NCBI RefSeq assembly: GCF_023806565.1
Contig: NZ_JAMTDV010000021.1
Span: 1-41,182 of the forward strand
DNA: 41,182 bases
Direction of reading: 5' to 3'
DNA from: Accumulibacter sp.
GTDB lineage: Bacteria; Pseudomonadota; Gammaproteobacteria; Burkholderiales; Rhodocyclaceae
Part shown: positions 2,259 through 9,493 of the stretch, one piece after another
Layout of the letters: each line of letters begins with the position of its first letter
How positions within the stretch are numbered: position 1 is the stretch's first letter
Notes under the pieces: model-generated
Database searches by the model: none
What the model was told of the DNA's origin: nothing
Seen by the model: the letters and a program-made list of their open reading frames with translations, nothing else
Position numbers and translations under genes: made by a program

Positions 2259-3149
2259 TTATGCCCACTTCCATGTCGAAAGCGCCAGTTGTAGGGCCGG
2301 GTTGAATGAATTGCGGCGCCAGGCAACGGCTGTCGTAACCACTTCGATTTCTTCTTTCAGTGGCTTCACCAAAACATTTTCTGGTGCAAGACGCTTCAAT
2401 CCCGATGGAATCAACGCCACGCCCTGACCGCATCCTACGAGTGCAATCTGCGCAGCCACTGAGCGTACATCGTGTAGCACCCTGGGAGAAAATCCATGCG
2501 CCTGACAGCCGGCGATGATGCTGTCGAAATACACCGGACTTACTTGGCGCATGAACATCACAAAAGGCTCATCGACAAGCTGGCCAAGTCGAATAGACTG
2601 ACTGCCAGCCAATCGGTGCTTGGACGGTAAAGCAACTGCCATGCGGTCCTGAGCAAGCAGCTTTGTGGATATATCTGAACCAAGTTCACCCTGAAGCCTT
2701 GCAAAAGCAAGATCAAGCTCCCCGGCCTGCAAGGCCGGTATGGCTTCAGCGCTATCGATCTCGCGCACCGATACAGAAACGTCTGGGTGCGCCTGCTTAA
2801 ATTGATCGACCAAAGGCGGAATTGCGTCAACCAGTGCCGACGAAATGGCGCCTATGGTCAAGGTTCCGCTCTGTCCAGCCGTGGCCTCGCGCACGGTCAG
2901 TTCGAGTTGTTCCATTTGTGATGCAAACCGTTGGACGGCGGGCAGGATGGCACGCCCTACCGGGGTGAGTTGCGTTCCCTGCCGTGAGCGTTCAAAGAGC
3001 TTGACCTTCAGGGCTTGCTCAAGGACCTGAATCTGTTCCGTCAACGGCGGTTGCGACATGCCCAGTCGCCGGGCTGCTCGGCCGAAGTGTTGCTCCTCAG
3101 CCACCGCGAGAAACATCCATAGATGGCGCATGAGACGAAAGTTAATCAT
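2259..3149 (-). CDS. LysR-type transcriptional regulator
   Basis: A 296-aa full-length LTTR. The N-terminal winged HTH (residues about 5-65) shows the hallmark EQHFGRAARRLGMSQPPLTEQI, followed by the linker helix and a periplasmic-binding-protein-like effector domain (about 90-290). The start at 3149 is preceded by an AAGGTG box 7 nt upstream; an ATG at 3131 is the alternative. It is divergent from the aldolase/aminotransferase operon across a 108-bp gap with an AT-rich palindrome, the classic arrangement of an LTTR that controls its neighbour in response to a pathway intermediate. The effector is unknown. Control of 3258-7253 is inferred from position only. Confidence 0.93.
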   Translation of the reverse strand: MINFRLMRHLWMFLAVAEEQHFGRAARRLGMSQPPLTEQIQVLEQALKVKLFERSRQGTQLTPVGRAILPAVQRFASQMEQLELTVREATAGQSGTLTIGAISSALVDAIPPLVDQFKQAHPDVSVSVREIDSAEAIPALQAGELDLAFARLQGELGSDISTKLLAQDRMAVALPSKHRLAGSQSIRLGQLVDEPFVMFMRQVSPVYFDSIIAGCQAHGFSPRVLHDVRSVAAQIALVGCGQGVALIPSGLKRLAPENVLVKPLKEEIEVVTTAVAWRRNSFNPALQLALSTWKWA

Positions 3150-3189
3150 GTACAGACACCTTCATATCTATTTCGTATCACAAGCTTAC

Positions 3190-3204
3190 TAAATTTGGAA
3201 TTTA
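3190..3204. promoter_or_regulatory. Candidate LysR operator palindrome
   Basis: TAAATT-TGG-AATTTA is a perfect 6+3+6 inverted repeat in the divergent intergenic region, 54 bp before the first operon gene. Its symmetry and AT content suit an LTTR recognition site. No defined LysR consensus match is claimed. Confidence 0.4.
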
Positions 3205-3257
3205 CAGATCATCCGTTTTCAGGAACAGTTGCATTCATTCCATCGAAGGATGCAAAC

Positions 3258-3926
3258 ATGACCACTTCCCAAGCACTAAGCCGGTTTTCACAACTCGACA
3301 CCACGACGGTGTCCGATGCCCTCGACTTTCTCGCCATGCCGGGTGCCACTGTAGGCGTACTACCTCTTTGGAATTGCCCGCGTATCGTGGGCCGTGCCAG
3401 TACGGTTCAGCTTGGCCCCAAACGCGAGGCCGCGCCAACCGTGCACCTGATATCGCCCGTCATTGCTGCCATCAACAGTGCCGACCGTGTACTTGTCATT
3501 GCAGGTGGCACAGATGGTGTGTCGTGTTGGGGGGATATCTTGGCCAATGCAGCCAGCGTCAAAGGTATTCGGGGCACCGTCATCGACGGTTACGCCCGCG
3601 ACATTGAAGCCAACGAAGCGCTTGGCTACCCGCTCTATGGCCGTGGCGCCACCATGGTTAGTGCCCGAAACCGGGTCATCCAGGTTGCATCGGGTACGCC
3701 GATCGCATTTGGCGGCGTCACGGTGAGTGAAGGGGACTACGTCATCGCAGACCGGTGCGGGACCGTGTTCGTTGCGCAGGAGCGCATTGACGAAGTACTG
3801 GATCTCGCAGAGCGCATCCAGCGCCGCCAGGATGGCATGGTGAAAGCCGTACGGTCTGGCCGGTCCGTCGAAGCGGTCATGCACGACAAGGAATTTGAAG
3901 CCATTAAGGTGGGACAGACACAATGA
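3258..3926 (+). CDS. RraA / HMG-CHA aldolase family protein, paralog 1
   Basis: A 222-aa cytosolic protein of the RraA-like fold, which includes class II 4-hydroxy-4-methyl-2-oxoglutarate/4-carboxy-4-hydroxy-2-oxoadipate aldolases and the RNase E inhibitor RraA. Seen here: VSDALDFL near residue 18, VIAGGTDGVSCWGD, then exactly 20 residues to the ARD of VIDGYARDIEAN, giving D-X20-R-D, the signature reported for true aldolases rather than RNase E regulators; DRCGTVFV lies near the end. The ATG at 3258 has an AAGGA box 7 nt upstream, and residues upstream of it are unlike the family. It is first in a five-gene operon and its stop overlaps the next start (ATGA). Probable metal-dependent retro-aldolase or oxaloacetate decarboxylase; substrate unknown. 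Confidence 0.88.
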   Translation: MTTSQALSRFSQLDTTTVSDALDFLAMPGATVGVLPLWNCPRIVGRASTVQLGPKREAAPTVHLISPVIAAINSADRVLVIAGGTDGVSCWGDILANAASVKGIRGTVIDGYARDIEANEALGYPLYGRGATMVSARNRVIQVASGTPIAFGGVTVSEGDYVIADRCGTVFVAQERIDEVLDLAERIQRRQDGMVKAVRSGRSVEAVMHDKEFEAIKVGQTQ

Positions 3927-4588
3927 ACACCACCGATGCAGAATTGGTAGCCCTTTTCGATGGGCTGGATACCCCCGGCGTGTCCGACGCCATGGACAAA
4001 CTGGGAATTCGAGGCCAGTGCCTGGGAATCTCCCCTCTGGATAACTACGCTCACACCGTTGTCGGTCCAGCTTTCACGGTACGGTACGTTCCTTGTGGTC
4101 AACCGGCTGGAACGGTCGGCGACTTCATCGACGACGTGACACCGGGTGATGTGGTGGTCATTGATAACGGAAGCCGCACGGACTGTACGGTGTGGGGCGA
4201 CATCATGACCCAGTACGCGGGACTGCGTGGGATTGCCGCAACGGTGATTGATGGTGTTTGCCGCGATGTAGCCAAGGCACTGGGTGGTGGCTACCCGATG
4301 TTCACGCGGGGACGTTTCATGCGAACAGGCAAGGATCGTGTGGAAGTGGCGGCGGTCAATCAACCTGTTTCCATCGGTACTGCGCGGGTGTGCTCCCGCG
4401 ACATTGTTGTGGCCGATGCCAACGGTGTGGTCGTGGTCCCCCGCGCTCGTGCCAGAGAGGTTGCCCAGACCGCACGACACATTGAGGATGCGGAATCCCG
4501 CATCCGCGAGTTGATCTCCAGCGGCATGACCTTGGGCGATGCCCGCAAGTCCATGGGCTACCACCAACTACAAACGAGATCTTCATGA
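3923..4588 (+). CDS. RraA / HMG-CHA aldolase family protein, paralog 2
   Basis: 221 aa, same fold as the gene before it but clearly diverged. It has TPGVSDAMDKLG near residue 15, DVVVIDNGSR, and WGD followed by 20 residues and RD (VIDGVCRDVAKA), so D-X20-R-D is kept. ADANGVVVVPR is the usual C-terminal strand motif. It starts by ATGA overlap with paralog 1 and ends by ATGA overlap with paralog 3, so translation is coupled along the run. Members assemble as trimers or hexamers with active sites at subunit interfaces (family knowledge), which makes a mixed oligomer with its neighbours plausible. An RNase E regulator role is unlikely given the intact aldolase signature. Confidence 0.88.
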   Translation: MNTTDAELVALFDGLDTPGVSDAMDKLGIRGQCLGISPLDNYAHTVVGPAFTVRYVPCGQPAGTVGDFIDDVTPGDVVVIDNGSRTDCTVWGDIMTQYAGLRGIAATVIDGVCRDVAKALGGGYPMFTRGRFMRTGKDRVEVAAVNQPVSIGTARVCSRDIVVADANGVVVVPRARAREVAQTARHIEDAESRIRELISSGMTLGDARKSMGYHQLQTRSS

Positions 4589-5211
4589 ATACCGAGTTGA
4601 TGTCGGAACGAGCGCTATCGCTGGGCACATCCACGCTGTATGAGGCTTCGGGGCTCGCCTGTGCGGTTGATCCGGCCATCCGTCCGGTATGGCAGGGGGC
4701 TGCTATCGCTGCACTTGTCTATCCCGTGCAATGTGCGCCGGGCGACAACTTGGCTATCCATTTGGCGCTTGAAAGAGCACCCAAAGGTAGTGTGCTCTTG
4801 GTTGCCACGGGCGGCTATCTGGCAGGCTACTGGGGTGAAGTGCTAACGGTCGCAGCCGAGGCCGTTGGAATCGTGGGACTCGTGACTGACGGGGGCGTGC
4901 GAGACATTGCCGCGCTACAGCGGCGGCGGTTTCCGGTTTTCAGTCGAGGGATCTCCGTTTGCGGCACAGTGAAGGCGACAGCGCCCTCCGTAGGAAAACC
5001 CATGCGCTTTAGCGGTGTGCCCGTTCAGCAGGGCGATTGGCTGGTTGCCGACGACGATGGCGTGGTCATCTTGCCCGCCGCCGACATATCTCGAGTAATA
5101 GTGGCTGGGGATGCAAGAGCTGCCAAGGAAGCGGCCATGATGGAACAACTGGCCAAGGGCGCCACAACGGTTGAGCTCATGGGTTTACAAGCTTCGAGGG
5201 AGCGTGCATGA
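4585..5211 (+). CDS. RraA / HMG-CHA aldolase family protein, paralog 3 (Glu variant)
   Basis: 208 aa. Closest in style to proteobacterial HMG/CHA aldolases (PGDNLAIHLALE, KGSVLLVATGGYLAGYWGE, VTDGGVRDIAAL, FPVFSRG, QQGDWLVADDDGVVILP). The signature residue 21 before the conserved Arg is Glu instead of the usual Asp, so it reads E-X20-R-D. The N-terminus is short: STLYEASGL takes the place of the usual VSDA-like opening. It is coupled by ATGA overlaps to paralog 2 and to the aminotransferase. It could be the main catalytic member, or a partner with altered metal binding. Family confident, substrate unknown. Confidence 0.86.
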   Translation: MNTELMSERALSLGTSTLYEASGLACAVDPAIRPVWQGAAIAALVYPVQCAPGDNLAIHLALERAPKGSVLLVATGGYLAGYWGEVLTVAAEAVGIVGLVTDGGVRDIAALQRRRFPVFSRGISVCGTVKATAPSVGKPMRFSGVPVQQGDWLVADDDGVVILPAADISRVIVAGDARAAKEAAMMEQLAKGATTVELMGLQASRERA

Positions 5212-6425
5212 ACGCCAGGCTTCAACGACTCAACGTGCATTTGGCCGCGGCAAAGCCGTCCGCAACCTACAAGATGATTGACCGCGTGGCCGAATTGAGG
5301 ACGGCCGGACGCAGCATCATTTCCTTGACGGCTGGAGAGCCCGATTTCAACACACCATCTCACGTCAGGCAGGCCGCCATCGCTGCCATCGAGGCTGGCA
5401 AGACGCGATACACTCAAGTAGCTGGATTGCGTGAGCTGCGTGAAGCAGTGGCTCGCAAGTTCCAGCGCGAGAACGGGCTGGACGTCACTTGGCAGGACAC
5501 GATTGTCTGCAGTGGTGGAAAGCAGGTCTTGTACAACGCCTTGGCCGCGACTTTGAACATTGGTGATGAGGTCATCATCCCGGCGCCCTACTGGGTCAGT
5601 TACCCCGAAATGGTGCAACTCAGTGGTGCGGCGGCCGTCCTTGTTTCGTGTCGTGAATCTGATGGCTTCAAGCTCACGGCTGATACCCTGGCAAGCGCAA
5701 TTACGCCTCGCACACGCTGGTTGATCCTGAATTCGCCATCCAATCCAACGGGCGCGGTGTACTCGGCTGCGGAATTGCGGACTTTCGCCGATGTGCTGCT
5801 AAGCCATCCGCAAGTGTTGATCCTCTGCGACGACATCTACGAACATTTGATCTATGACGGCGCGCTGTTCCAGACCTTGGCCCAAGTGGAGCCACGCCTG
5901 CGTGATCGAACATTGACCATGAATGGCGTGTCCAAGGCCTATGCAATGACCGGATGGCGCATCGGCTTTGGCACGGGGCCTCGATGGCTGTTGCAGGCCA
6001 TGGAGACCCTGCAAGGTCAGCAGACGTCAGGGGCGTGTTCGATTTCGCAGTACGCTGCGTTGGCGGCTCTCAATGGACCGCAGGATTTTGTGCGGGAGAC
6101 ACGAGCAGTCTTTCAGCGAAGGCGTGACGTAGTGGTGGCAAGCATCAACCGCATCCCAGGCTTGCATTGCTCGCCCCCCGCCGGGGCGTTCTATGCATTC
6201 GTGTCCTGTGAATCATTGATTGGCCGCGTCACGGCTGCCGGTTCGCCACTGCAAAGCGATGAAGAGGTCGCCCTGGCGCTGCTCAATGAACAGGGTGTGG
6301 GGACTGTTCACGGTAGTGCATTTGGCTTGGGGTCGTATCTGCGTATTGCTTACGCGCTGGACGACGCGTCGCTCCAAAAAGCATGCCGTGCATTGGAGAC
6401 TTTTGTCAGAGGTTGCGACAGGTAG
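5208..6425 (+). CDS. Class I/II PLP-dependent aminotransferase (AspC/AspB-like)
   Basis: 405 aa, full length, cytosolic. Motifs in order: SLTAGEPDFNTPSHV near residue 40, NSPSNPTGAVYSA near 180 (cofactor Asn), DDIYEHLIYDGA near 210 (Asp and Tyr), NGVSKAYAMTGWRIGFG near 240 with the PLP lysine, and YLRIAYALDD near the end with the carboxylate-binding Arg. This is the subgroup that transaminates aspartate, prephenate or similar dicarboxylic and aromatic amino acids. Within this operon it would supply the 2-oxo acid that the aldolase paralogs cleave, for example 4-hydroxy-4-methylglutamate to 4-hydroxy-4-methyl-2-oxoglutarate. That pairing is inference. Start overlaps the previous stop (ATGA). 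Confidence 0.92.
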   Translation: MNARLQRLNVHLAAAKPSATYKMIDRVAELRTAGRSIISLTAGEPDFNTPSHVRQAAIAAIEAGKTRYTQVAGLRELREAVARKFQRENGLDVTWQDTIVCSGGKQVLYNALAATLNIGDEVIIPAPYWVSYPEMVQLSGAAAVLVSCRESDGFKLTADTLASAITPRTRWLILNSPSNPTGAVYSAAELRTFADVLLSHPQVLILCDDIYEHLIYDGALFQTLAQVEPRLRDRTLTMNGVSKAYAMTGWRIGFGTGPRWLLQAMETLQGQQTSGACSISQYAALAALNGPQDFVRETRAVFQRRRDVVVASINRIPGLHCSPPAGAFYAFVSCESLIGRVTAAGSPLQSDEEVALALLNEQGVGTVHGSAFGLGSYLRIAYALDDASLQKACRALETFVRGCDR

Positions 6426-6431
6426 ACGGAC

Positions 6432-7253
6432 ATGACGCCTCTTGCATTTTCACGTCGCACATTGCGGATTCATGAAACGGATCTGGATGTGGCTACTTTG
6501 CAGCGCGATGGCAATGCCGAGCCCATTGTGTTTCTGCATGGGTTCGGTTCGACCAAGGAAGACTACGCAGATATTTCCTTACACTCCAGATTCGATGACC
6601 ATCCAGTTCTGGCGTGGGATGCACCCGGCTGCGGGGTGACAGAGTGCTCTCGCTTGGACCGCATATCCATTGGATTGTTGATTGATACGGCCGTGGCCAT
6701 GGTGGACGCTGCGGGATATGAGCGCTTTCACCTTGTAGGGCACTCGATGGGTGGGCTGACGTCGCTGATGTTGGCAGATCGAATCCCGGAGAGGGTCTTG
6801 AGTTTCACGAATATTGAAGGCAACGTCGCCTCCGAGGACTGCTTCTTGAGCCGGCAGATCGATCAATTCCCAGACGATGACTGTGAGCGATTCTTGCAGC
6901 GCTTCATCAAGCGGGTACGACAGTCCCCAGCATTCGCCAGCTCGCTATATGCTGCAAGCTTGCCTCATAAAGTGCGGGCCCAAGCAGTGCCTGGCATTTT
7001 TCGGTCGATGGTTGACTTGTCTGACAATGGCGACTTGATGCACCGATTTCTGAAGCTGCGTTGCCCAAAGATGTTCATGTACGGTGAGCAGAACCAGCAC
7101 CTTAGCTATCTGCCGCACCTTGCCCGTCACAGCGTTCGTCTAGCCTGTATCACGCAATGCGGACATTTCCCGATGTATTCCAATCCTCCGGGCATGTGGA
7201 ATGCGATTGCGAAATTCTTGCAATTCTCGAAGTCACAGGCAATGTCTTTATAG
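6432..7253 (+). CDS. Alpha/beta hydrolase
   Basis: 273 aa with the alpha/beta hydrolase fold: oxyanion-hole HGFGSTKEDY near residue 35, WDAPGCGVTE near 65, nucleophile elbow GHSMGG near 100 (Ser), an acid in the strand around FMYGEQNQ, and the catalytic His in QCGHFPMYSNP near 250. No signal peptide. It starts 6 nt after the aminotransferase stop and is the last gene of the operon. Likely an ester, lactone or C-C hydrolase acting in the same pathway, but this family cannot be assigned a substrate from sequence. Codon use in this operon looks less GC-biased than in the housekeeping genes further right, consistent with acquisition. Confidence 0.85.
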   Translation: MTPLAFSRRTLRIHETDLDVATLQRDGNAEPIVFLHGFGSTKEDYADISLHSRFDDHPVLAWDAPGCGVTECSRLDRISIGLLIDTAVAMVDAAGYERFHLVGHSMGGLTSLMLADRIPERVLSFTNIEGNVASEDCFLSRQIDQFPDDDCERFLQRFIKRVRQSPAFASSLYAASLPHKVRAQAVPGIFRSMVDLSDNGDLMHRFLKLRCPKMFMYGEQNQHLSYLPHLARHSVRLACITQCGHFPMYSNPPGMWNAIAKFLQFSKSQAMSL

Positions 7254-8360: not shown

Positions 8361-8875
8361 GCCAGGGCCTCCTCGCACCGTTCGGTTTGATCCGAACGCA
8401 GTTCCAGTGCCAGTTGCTCGATCCCGTTGGCGCGCAGACGCACTTCCAGGTGGTCGGGCGACACGATTACCTTCTCGACCAGCAGCCGGACGATGCGGGT
8501 TTGCTCCGCCGGGAACAGTTGATCCCAGATCGCCTCGATCCGCGTCATCGCCACGGTGACCTTGGCTTCATCCAGCGTCGGATCCAGCTCGATCGCTTCG
8601 GTCAGCAAGTCGCCGAGCAACGCCGGAGCGCGCAGAATCGCACGCAAATGATCCAACACGGCGGATTCGAGTTCTGCCGCCGGAAATCGCGGCAGCCCCG
8701 AAGCACCGGCGTGCTCCTTCGTATCGCGCATCGGGATGTAATAACGATGGCGCCGCCCGCTCGCCTTCTTGATGCTGTGCCAGGGTGACAAGGCACGCCC
8801 ATCGTTCCCGAACACGATACCCTTGAGCAGGAACGGCACGGTGGAGCGCGTCGCGCCGCCACGGTTGCGGCAGTG
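8357..8875 (-). pseudogene. C-terminal fragment of a large serine recombinase
   Basis: Only the C-terminal part of a site-specific serine recombinase remains: a zinc-ribbon/recombinase region (FLLKGIVFGNDGRALSP, RHRYYIPMRDTKEHAG) and the coiled-coil tail (IWDQLFPAEQTRIVRLLVEKV near the end). The catalytic resolvase domain is absent. Upstream of about 8875 the frame stays open but encodes the antisense of istB, so the gene was cut by the IS-derived segment. It cannot be catalytically active. Confidence 0.78.
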
Positions 8876-9493
8876 GATCACCAGGATATCGTGCACGCCT
8901 TGCCACAACGCTGGATCGACGATCGCCGGGTGAAGGCGGCCCGCCTGCCGGGGATCAAGACGCTCGACGGCTTCGATTGGAGTTGGCCAAAGAAGATCAA
9001 CCGGGCGCTGCTGCAGCAGGTGTTTCGGCTGGACTTCCTGCCGCAGCACGGCAATGTGATCCTGCTCGGCGGCGTCGGTGTCGGCAAGACGCACCTGGCG
9101 ATCGCCCTGGCCCATACCGCTTGCCTCCAGGGCAAGACGACGCTCTTCACCAGTGCCGTCGATAACGTCAACGCGCTGGCCGCCGCTCAGGCCACCGGCG
9201 GCATCAAGCGCGAGATGGCCCGGCTGCTCAAGCCTTCGCTGCTCGTCGTCGACGAACTCGGCTACCTGCCCATCGACAAGTTCGGCGCCGATGTGCTCTT
9301 CCAGGGGATCAGCCAGCGTTATGAGCGCGGCTCGACGGTGATCACCACCAACCGTGCCTTCAAGCACTGGCCGGAGATCTTCCACAACGACAGCACGCTG
9401 ACTTCGGCATTGCTCGACCGCTTGCTCCATCACGCCGAGTCCATCGTCATCGAGGGCCCCTGCTACCGCATGCGCGATCAGTCCGACGCCTGA
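8873..9493 (+). pseudogene. istB: IS21-family IstB ATPase, 5'-truncated
   Basis: IstB is the AAA+ helper of the IS21 transposase IstA. Seen: KTLDGFDWSWPKKIN, Walker A GGVGVGKTHLAIALA near residue 65, Walker B LLVVDELGYLPID near 125, and sensor-like STVITTNRAFKHW. The frame is intact from about 8873 to the stop, but the first ~40 residues of a normal IstB are missing and istA is absent. The left breakpoint coincides with the truncated recombinase. This is a remnant that cannot transpose on its own. Confidence 0.8.

Follow-up and report, generated by a model that had tools for sequence, protein, structure and literature searches.

Why would a bacterium keep three adjoining genes of one enzyme family in a single operon, and would the three proteins carry out the same reaction? 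This question is raised by a locus in a 41,182-nucleotide stretch of Accumulibacter sp. DNA (contig NZ_JAMTDV010000021.1; the whole stretch is referred to here as the window), in which three PF03737 paralogs, designated A, B, and C, are followed by genes for an aminotransferase (AT) and an alpha/beta hydrolase (HYD) and are preceded by a divergent LysR-type regulator. The original prediction was that A, B, and C are three aldolases acting after a transamination. The analysis described here indicates, at the level of sequence, that the three paralogs belong to separate lineages, each with its own fixed set of active-site residues, and the operon looks like an unstudied pathway for consuming an unusual acidic amino acid. 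The gene set and positions are confirmed in the window as follows:

2259–3149, minus strand: divergent LysR-type regulator (PF00126 and PF03466; HTH_1 and LysR_substrate)
3258–3926, plus strand: A, 222 residues, RraA-like (PF03737, 107 bits, cut-off 24.5)
3923–4588, plus strand: B, 221 residues, RraA-like, 3K4I/PRK08245 type (PF03737, 122 bits, cut-off 24.5)
4585–5211, plus strand: C, 208 residues, LigK/HMG-CHA-aldolase-like (PF03737, 123 bits, cut-off 24.5)
5208–6425, plus strand: AT, class I aminotransferase, aspartate type (PF00155, 262 bits)
6432–7253, plus strand: HYD, alpha/beta hydrolase (PF12697/PF00561; Abhydrolase_6/1)

Open reading frames and Pfam matches agree with the five-gene operon that had been predicted at 3258–7253, including the ATGA overlaps at the A/B (3923), B/C (4585), and C/AT (5208) junctions; AT and HYD are separated by a gap of 6 bp with no overlap. 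The start of A was set at 3258, and not at the listed open reading frame start of 3123, because alignments with relatives begin at the first residue of the protein read from 3258. One further PF03737 gene is present in the same genome (3.71 Mb, 139 contigs), on a different contig.

Lineages and active sites of the three paralogs

The relationships of the paralogs were examined in a tree of 90 RraA-type rows, rooted at the midpoint only, from which one distant A protein (L097_A), whose C-terminal part as annotated cannot be aligned, was excluded. Near and distant A proteins form one group of 23 rows (branch values 86/85, not starred), B forms one of 31 rows (93/99, not starred) that also takes in the Protein Data Bank (PDB) entry 3K4I and some single genes resembling B, and near C proteins form a group of their own (17 rows, 100/97, starred). 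The separate lineages rule out the possibility that the three genes are recent duplicates.

Residues are numbered here by 3NOJ, the Pseudomonas putida 4-hydroxy-4-methyl-2-oxoglutarate/4-carboxy-4-hydroxy-2-oxoadipate (HMG/CHA) aldolase, and 11 RraA rows outside 190–265 amino acids were excluded from the residue counts. As predicted, the motif (D/E)-X20-R-D is kept in all three proteins, with Asp in A and B and Glu in C. The residue sets around it differ. The near A proteins contain His75, Asp102, Arg123, Asp124, an ARNR loop, and Gln199, the last in 75 of 76 rows (the exception being L016). B contains Gly75, Asp102, Arg123, Asp124, a GKDR loop, and Glu199 in 71/71 rows, and 12 of the 13 inspected columns are identical in all 71, with only column 71 varying. 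C contains Asn71, His75, Glu102, Arg123, Asp124, Gly144, Thr145, Lys147 (GTxK), Arg195, and Glu199 in 50/50 rows, and is the only one of the three to keep the full residue set of the P. putida aldolase. Consequently, D-X20-R-D alone does not predict equal activity for A, B, and C. For the P. putida enzyme, the available text of PMC5065237 reports a 1114-fold drop in kcat with either the N71A or the K147A substitution and a 181-fold drop with R123K, and it names Asp124 and Glu199 for the metal site.

Asn71, Thr145, and Lys147 are absent from A and B in both of two alignments. A and B have one extra residue in the loop relative to 3NOJ, and the Lys147 column is occupied by Asn (A) or Asp (B) in the first alignment and by Arg in both proteins in the second; Arg, a mild change, might stand in for Lys. 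The predicted loss of aldolase residues is therefore firmest at position 71 and, in A, at position 199. Distant A proteins add a further pattern, as column 102 is Gly and column 199 is Glu in 7/7 rows (L090–L096), and Gly is also found at 102 in L097_A. Comparison of Asp102/Gln199 in the near proteins with Gly102/Glu199 in the distant ones suggests that lineage A keeps Asp124 plus one of two other acidic positions in a branch-specific manner.

Structural and profile comparisons also separate the three proteins. The AlphaFold model of A (mean pLDDT 89.7) is closest in the PDB to 3K4I (TM score 0.80–0.83 by query), with a TM score of 0.75 by query against 3NOJ. By sequence, 3K4I is the best PDB match for A and B (E 3e-47 for B) and 3NOJ is the best match for C (E 8e-31). 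The scores of A, B, and C are 55, 78.3, and 151.4 bits with TIGR02798 (cut-off 304.5) and 60, 82.9, and 159.9 bits with NF006731 (cut-off 179), such that none passes either model.

Conservation, distant cassettes, and genomic setting

A single scan of genome contigs with A as the query gave 181 relatives, of which the best 80 (70 beta-, 6 alpha-, and 4 gammaproteobacterial by record title) were kept and labelled as L-numbered loci. Genes in these loci were called with a codon-scored gene caller, with some starts still cut. The 69 loci treated as uncut have at least 1.5 kb upstream and at least 4.5 kb downstream of A, and the 11 short ones were excluded; orthologues were accepted at identity floors of 65% (B, AT), 55% (C, LysR), and 45% (HYD), all with more than 100 bits. 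B follows A in 60/69 uncut loci, C is found in 46/69, AT in 49/69, HYD nearby in 43/69, and a LysR orthologue near A in 57/69. Synteny of the triplet, which had been proposed beforehand as a check, is borne out by A-B-C in 46/69 loci; all five of these partners of A are present in 32/69 and none of the five in 6/69. B and C are present in 46 and 36 of the 49 uncut loci with AT and in 14 and 10 of the 20 without it. Furthermore, the distance matrices of the six genes are correlated over 25 complete loci (pairwise r 0.74–0.93, a measure that includes shared species history), with 0 of 999 permutations as high.

A also occurs without its partners. No B above 34% identity was found in eight genomes with a solitary A (L024, L027, L031, L040, L050, L064, L070, and L073), which are mostly draft metagenome bins of unknown completeness. 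Together with L028, in which no B exceeds 32%, these genomes rule out an obligate A-B partnership. The solitary A in L031, L045, L050, L070, L073, and L076 lies near another alpha/beta hydrolase, a short-chain dehydrogenase/reductase, and mostly also TctC; the hydrolase of L031 is 22% identical to HYD, and its end overlaps A. At L024:1734–4838 and L040:8001–11131, the solitary A adjoins cytochrome bd oxidase subunit genes. At the L007 locus, additional genes resembling B and C lie between TctC genes.

More distant cassettes were examined in eight plasmid records opened among the lower-identity matches to A or B. The gene order is LysR-A-B-C in Streptosporangium, amidohydrolase-LigB-A-B-C in Aminobacter, and amidohydrolase-LigB-A-B-C-dehydrogenase-hydrolase followed by an opposite-strand LysR in Polymorphobacter. 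Rhodococcus has C-LigB-A-B with RidA and amidohydrolase genes further on. Two Novosphingobium records have RidA-A-B, one with an amidohydrolase before it and the other at the record end, and two Bradyrhizobium records have amidohydrolase-RidA-A-B and, on the opposite strand, an extradiol dioxygenase gene. By BLAST bit score, the first gene in the seven cassettes compared (L090–L096) is nearest A (36–41%), the second nearest B (44–56%), and the third (a separate one in L096) nearest C (42–48%); L093_A is exceptional in having a higher percentage but a lower score against B than against A. LigB and Amidohydro_2 are confirmed by Pfam in L090, L092, L094, and L096, Amidohydro_2 also in L091; L097 has LigB and amidohydrolase by annotation, and L093 and L095 show neither. 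The A-B(-C) order thus recurs as far away as Actinomycetota, and most of these cassettes adjoin LigB dioxygenase and amidohydrolase genes. The Streptosporangium cassette (L093:5021–7942, on a small plasmid of 28 kb) has no annotated catabolic neighbour within the 12.7 kb inspected. The B genes of the Novosphingobium plasmids (L091:6655–7311 and L095:1128–1796; 44–45% to B) are annotated as diguanylate cyclase, a probable misannotation.

The third position of the cassette varies. The Aminobacter gene in this slot groups with 3NOJ in the tree (100/99). In L029, L048, L072, and L077, the 2.7 kb downstream of A include a C-like gene of 38–41% identity, and the C-like genes of L069 and L080 adjoin other B-like genes. 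Judged by these placements, other predicted LigK-like enzymes sometimes occupy the C slot.

In the window, the GC content in 2-kb steps is 0.56–0.59 over the operon versus 0.59–0.65 elsewhere. Downstream of the operon, an IS21 IstB gene (8873–9493, plus strand) overlaps an opposite-strand open reading frame with a recombinase zinc-ribbon match below cut-off; from these matches, the segment 8357–9586 is taken to be mobile-element debris at the operon edge, and beyond it lie core genes including bamE and dapB. The DapB protein is 78% identical to its counterpart in Accumulibacter sp. UW9-POB and 43–67% identical to those of ten other genomes compared, which makes a Candidatus Accumulibacter relative the probable host. 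A near copy of A is present in 2 of the 28 same-genus genomes searched, including its own, and its own is the only one with A among 369 genomes in a class-wide draw (E up to 1e-50) in which few rows are of the same order. This sparse distribution suggests that the operon is an accessory element, probably acquired, and it has apparently passed between species.

Two short elements are conserved in the LysR/A intergenic region:

3164–3178, plus strand: putative LysR box, ATA-N9-TAT
3197–3205, plus strand: GGAATTTAC, identical in 9/9 aligned relatives

In the right half of the putative box (C-G/A-TAT), the C, T, A, and T are invariant in 9/9 aligned relatives, and CGTAT is found in 8/9; the left ATA is present in all aligned rows that reach that far. 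The invariant GGAATTTAC probably lies within the A operator or promoter.

The proposed pathway and its alternatives

The prediction of a class I aminotransferase can be narrowed to the aspartate type. The best PDB match of AT is aspartate aminotransferase A (6F77; 495 bits over 392 residues), and Lys243 (SKAYAMTGWR) and Lys105 (GGK) are kept in 56/56 rows; in such enzymes, the former presumably binds pyridoxal phosphate and the latter the far carboxylate. AT scores 536.2 with NF004769, below the cut-off of 617. With both lysines kept in an aspartate-type enzyme, AT most likely acts on a dicarboxylic amino acid. At least 95% of the 49 HYD rows retain Ser105 (GHSMGG) and His245.

Genes found beside some relatives include an L-asparagine permease, a branched-chain-type ABC binding protein, an alanine/glycine symporter, and 5-oxoprolinase subunits with biotin carboxylase parts, and a Glu/Leu/Phe/Val dehydrogenase gene lies near the operon in two Rhizobium plasmids. 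Together, the amino-acid transporter, dehydrogenase, and 5-oxoprolinase neighbours fit an acidic or glutamate-like amino acid. 5-Oxoprolinase subunits and a biotin carrier occur at L013:12942–15932 and in L086, L087, and L088, with biotin carboxylase in the annotated plasmids, and these genes could specify a biotin-dependent lactam opener that feeds the operon. PxpA is found in 7/80 loci (1.186 Mb), where about 0.39 would be expected from the 24 copies counted across 11 genomes (about 73.5 Mb); these background genomes were chosen to include the seven loci, which raises the expectation, and kinship is ignored. TctC receptors lie near 27/80 loci and aldehyde dehydrogenase near 12/80. Split AcnX (large and small subunits) is near 8/80 loci, all with A-B(-C) (L029, L037, L041, L043, L051, L068, L074, and L082), seven of which lack AT; split aconitase X types are described in the available text of PMC5144071 as lacking a functional assignment.

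A two-subunit thiamine pyrophosphate (TPP) enzyme that resembles sulfopyruvate decarboxylase, with scores below its cut-offs, lies near 12/80 loci. Such pairs are seen at L012:3196–5901 and also in L013, L029, L032, L034, L037, L042, L047, L051, L069, L072, L079, and L086, in arrangements that vary and are mostly accompanied by aldehyde dehydrogenase and LysR. A sulfonate reading, in which AT and this pair would act in a cysteate route, was rejected given these scores and this frequency.

The preferred reading, to which a probability of roughly 0.4 is assigned, is that of a horizontally moved, LysR-controlled catabolic operon. HYD would open an ester, amide, or lactone to set free an acidic amino acid, and AT would then move the amino group off this amino acid to give a 2-oxo acid. 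C, as a LigK-type metal-dependent pyruvate aldolase, would cleave the (4-hydroxy-)2-oxo acid to pyruvate and a second product, and A and B, as specialised relatives, would provide an accompanying step, most likely an oxaloacetate-like decarboxylation or a dehydration/tautomerisation. A-B(-C) would represent a portable end module, which other bacteria keep beside extradiol aromatic cleavage genes and not beside AT. The altered sites of A and B suit a step other than that of C. HMG/CHA aldolases decarboxylate oxaloacetate, a reaction that needs no general base (available text of PMC5065237), and FlDet is described in the available text of PMC8563752 as an RraA-like protein able to dehydrate and decarboxylate. 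HYD could also act on a carbon-carbon bond, as an RraA-family HMG aldolase acts downstream of a C-C hydrolase in a lignin route proposed in the available text of PMC12673573.

Several observations weigh against this reading. AT is absent from 20/69 uncut loci, and in L007 (8001–8812), which is among the six loci with none of the five partners, the sequence directly after A matches only the first 53 residues of AT, such that this operon looks decayed. L028 is arranged as LysR-A-AT-HYD in a genome whose best matches to B and C are 32% and 38%; C, like B, has no close match in the eight searched solitary-A genomes (L045 and L076 were outside this search); and L098 has B-like and C-like genes with TctC between them and no adjoining A. 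C itself stays under the NCBIfam HMG/CHA-aldolase cut-offs, and the neighbour counts ignore the kinship of loci. The argument from Lys147 is weaker than those from positions 71, 102, and 199 because placement of the loop gap is ambiguous, and the place of Asp102 in the metal site is presumed from the motif.

The alternatives differ mainly in what they assign to A and B. In a more specific proposal, which is doubtful, A would have given up one acidic position of the presumed metal site, Asp102 or Glu199, to become a non-aldolase partner of B and C, possibly in a mixed oligomer, with the portable module serving at least two unrelated routes, amino-acid degradation (AT) and extradiol aromatic cleavage (LigB); such an oligomer cannot be obligatory, given the genomes, mostly draft bins, that have A and in which no close B or C was found. 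The original prediction is fairly unlikely: each of the three would serve as a pyruvate aldolase in a route for a 4-hydroxy-4-substituted glutamate, with transamination by AT preceding retro-aldol cleavage to pyruvate and a 2-oxo acid. The shared D/E-X20-R-D motif, the aspartate-type AT, and the 5-oxoprolinase and amino-acid transport neighbours agree with this route, and Lys147 may be replaced merely by Arg, but Asn71, Thr145, and Lys147 are missing from A and B, Gln199 replaces Glu199 in near A, and these differences are fixed in each lineage; given the tree, redundancy would not be expected to hold three lineages apart. Thus, the original interpretation stands in part: the triplet is conserved, AT is of the aspartate type, and the paralogs are not typical RNase E regulators, but three equivalent aldolases are not supported, as the full residue set is found in C only. 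The remaining possibility, that the paralogs act on RNase E as RraA proper does, has the common fold in its favour and is highly improbable, as the proteins lie far under the RraA models (TIGR02998, cut-off 241.25: A 37.3, C 22.6, B no match reported; NF006875, cut-off 136: 34, 35.8, and 47.4 bits for the three paralogs) and the operon context is catabolic.

A hetero-oligomer of A, B, and C, or of A and B, in which sites between unlike subunits do different jobs, is unlikely. In its favour, RraA-fold proteins form trimers with sites near the subunit contacts, the A-B(-C) order and short overlaps are fixed from Proteobacteria to Streptosporangium, A and B branch similarly among the distant cassettes, and A has lost one or the other of two acidic residues; this is set against the genomes that have A without a close B and the exchangeable C slot. 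Similarly improbable is a role for A and B as dehydratases or hydratase/tautomerases that feed C, for which the location of A-B beside LigB and amidohydrolase genes can be cited, where a tautomerase or hydratase step would presumably be needed. FlDet provides a precedent, but the available text of PMC8563752 gives its identity to two other RraA-fold proteins as 26% and 20%. Finally, AT may produce oxaloacetate or a 3-substituted oxaloacetate from an aspartate-like input, with A, B, and C acting as decarboxylases and no retro-aldol step needed. The kinship of AT with aspartate aminotransferase A, the neighbouring L-asparagine permease, and the oxaloacetate decarboxylation by HMG/CHA aldolases reported in PMC5065237 are consistent with this proposal, which is nevertheless judged unlikely, as three lineages for one decarboxylation would seem excessive and the aldolase residue set is kept in C.

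Comparison with known systems

While the individual families are known, no description of an RraA triplet or an RraA-aminotransferase operon was found among the titles and abstract openings listed from the openly licensed literature (CC0, CC BY, and CC BY-SA, with most subscription journals outside its scope), nor was a conserved module of three paralogs with unlike sites and two metabolic settings found there. Homologues of HMG/CHA aldolase are common in species without matching aromatic clusters, where their role is unknown according to the available text of PMC5065237. A conserved operon with three unlike paralogs, a regulator, and AT makes the role of such homologues testable, as it points to the proteins that should be combined, the residues to exchange, and the class of substrate to try. 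It may also reveal an acidic-amino-acid route so far undescribed.

C resembles the HMG/CHA aldolases (LigK, GalC; 3NOJ from P. putida) in fold family and in Asn71, His75, Thr145, Lys147, Arg123, Asp124, Arg195, and Glu199, but differs in having Glu102, NCBIfam scores below cut-off, and AT, HYD, and two paralogs adjoining it; A and B are without several of the active-site residues of this enzyme. The PSPTO_3204/PRK08245-type protein 3K4I, whose PDB title gives no function, falls within the B clade and is nearest to A and B by sequence and to A by fold, although A has its own loop and Gln199. AT has the SKAYAMTGWR lysine and GGK in common with aspartate aminotransferase A (6F77) while remaining under the NF004769 cut-off. 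Protocatechuate 4,5-/gallate-type cleavage clusters comprise LigB, an amidohydrolase, and LigK, and the distant A-B(-C) cassettes adjoin LigB and Amidohydro_2 genes; in contrast, there is no ring-cleavage dioxygenase among the genes of the window operon. FlDet, an RraA-like KDGR dehydratase/decarboxylase, is similar in that an RraA-like protein serves a non-aldolase step, but it belongs to an alginate pathway and is likened here by its description (available text of PMC8563752). In the 5,5'-dehydrodivanillate (DDVA) pathway proposed for Paenibacillus sp. B2, a C-C (alpha/beta) hydrolase is likewise followed by an RraA-family HMG aldolase; as described in the available text of PMC12673573, that pathway has a single aldolase and a ring-cleaving dioxygenase and no aminotransferase, whereas the window operon combines three unlike paralogs with AT.

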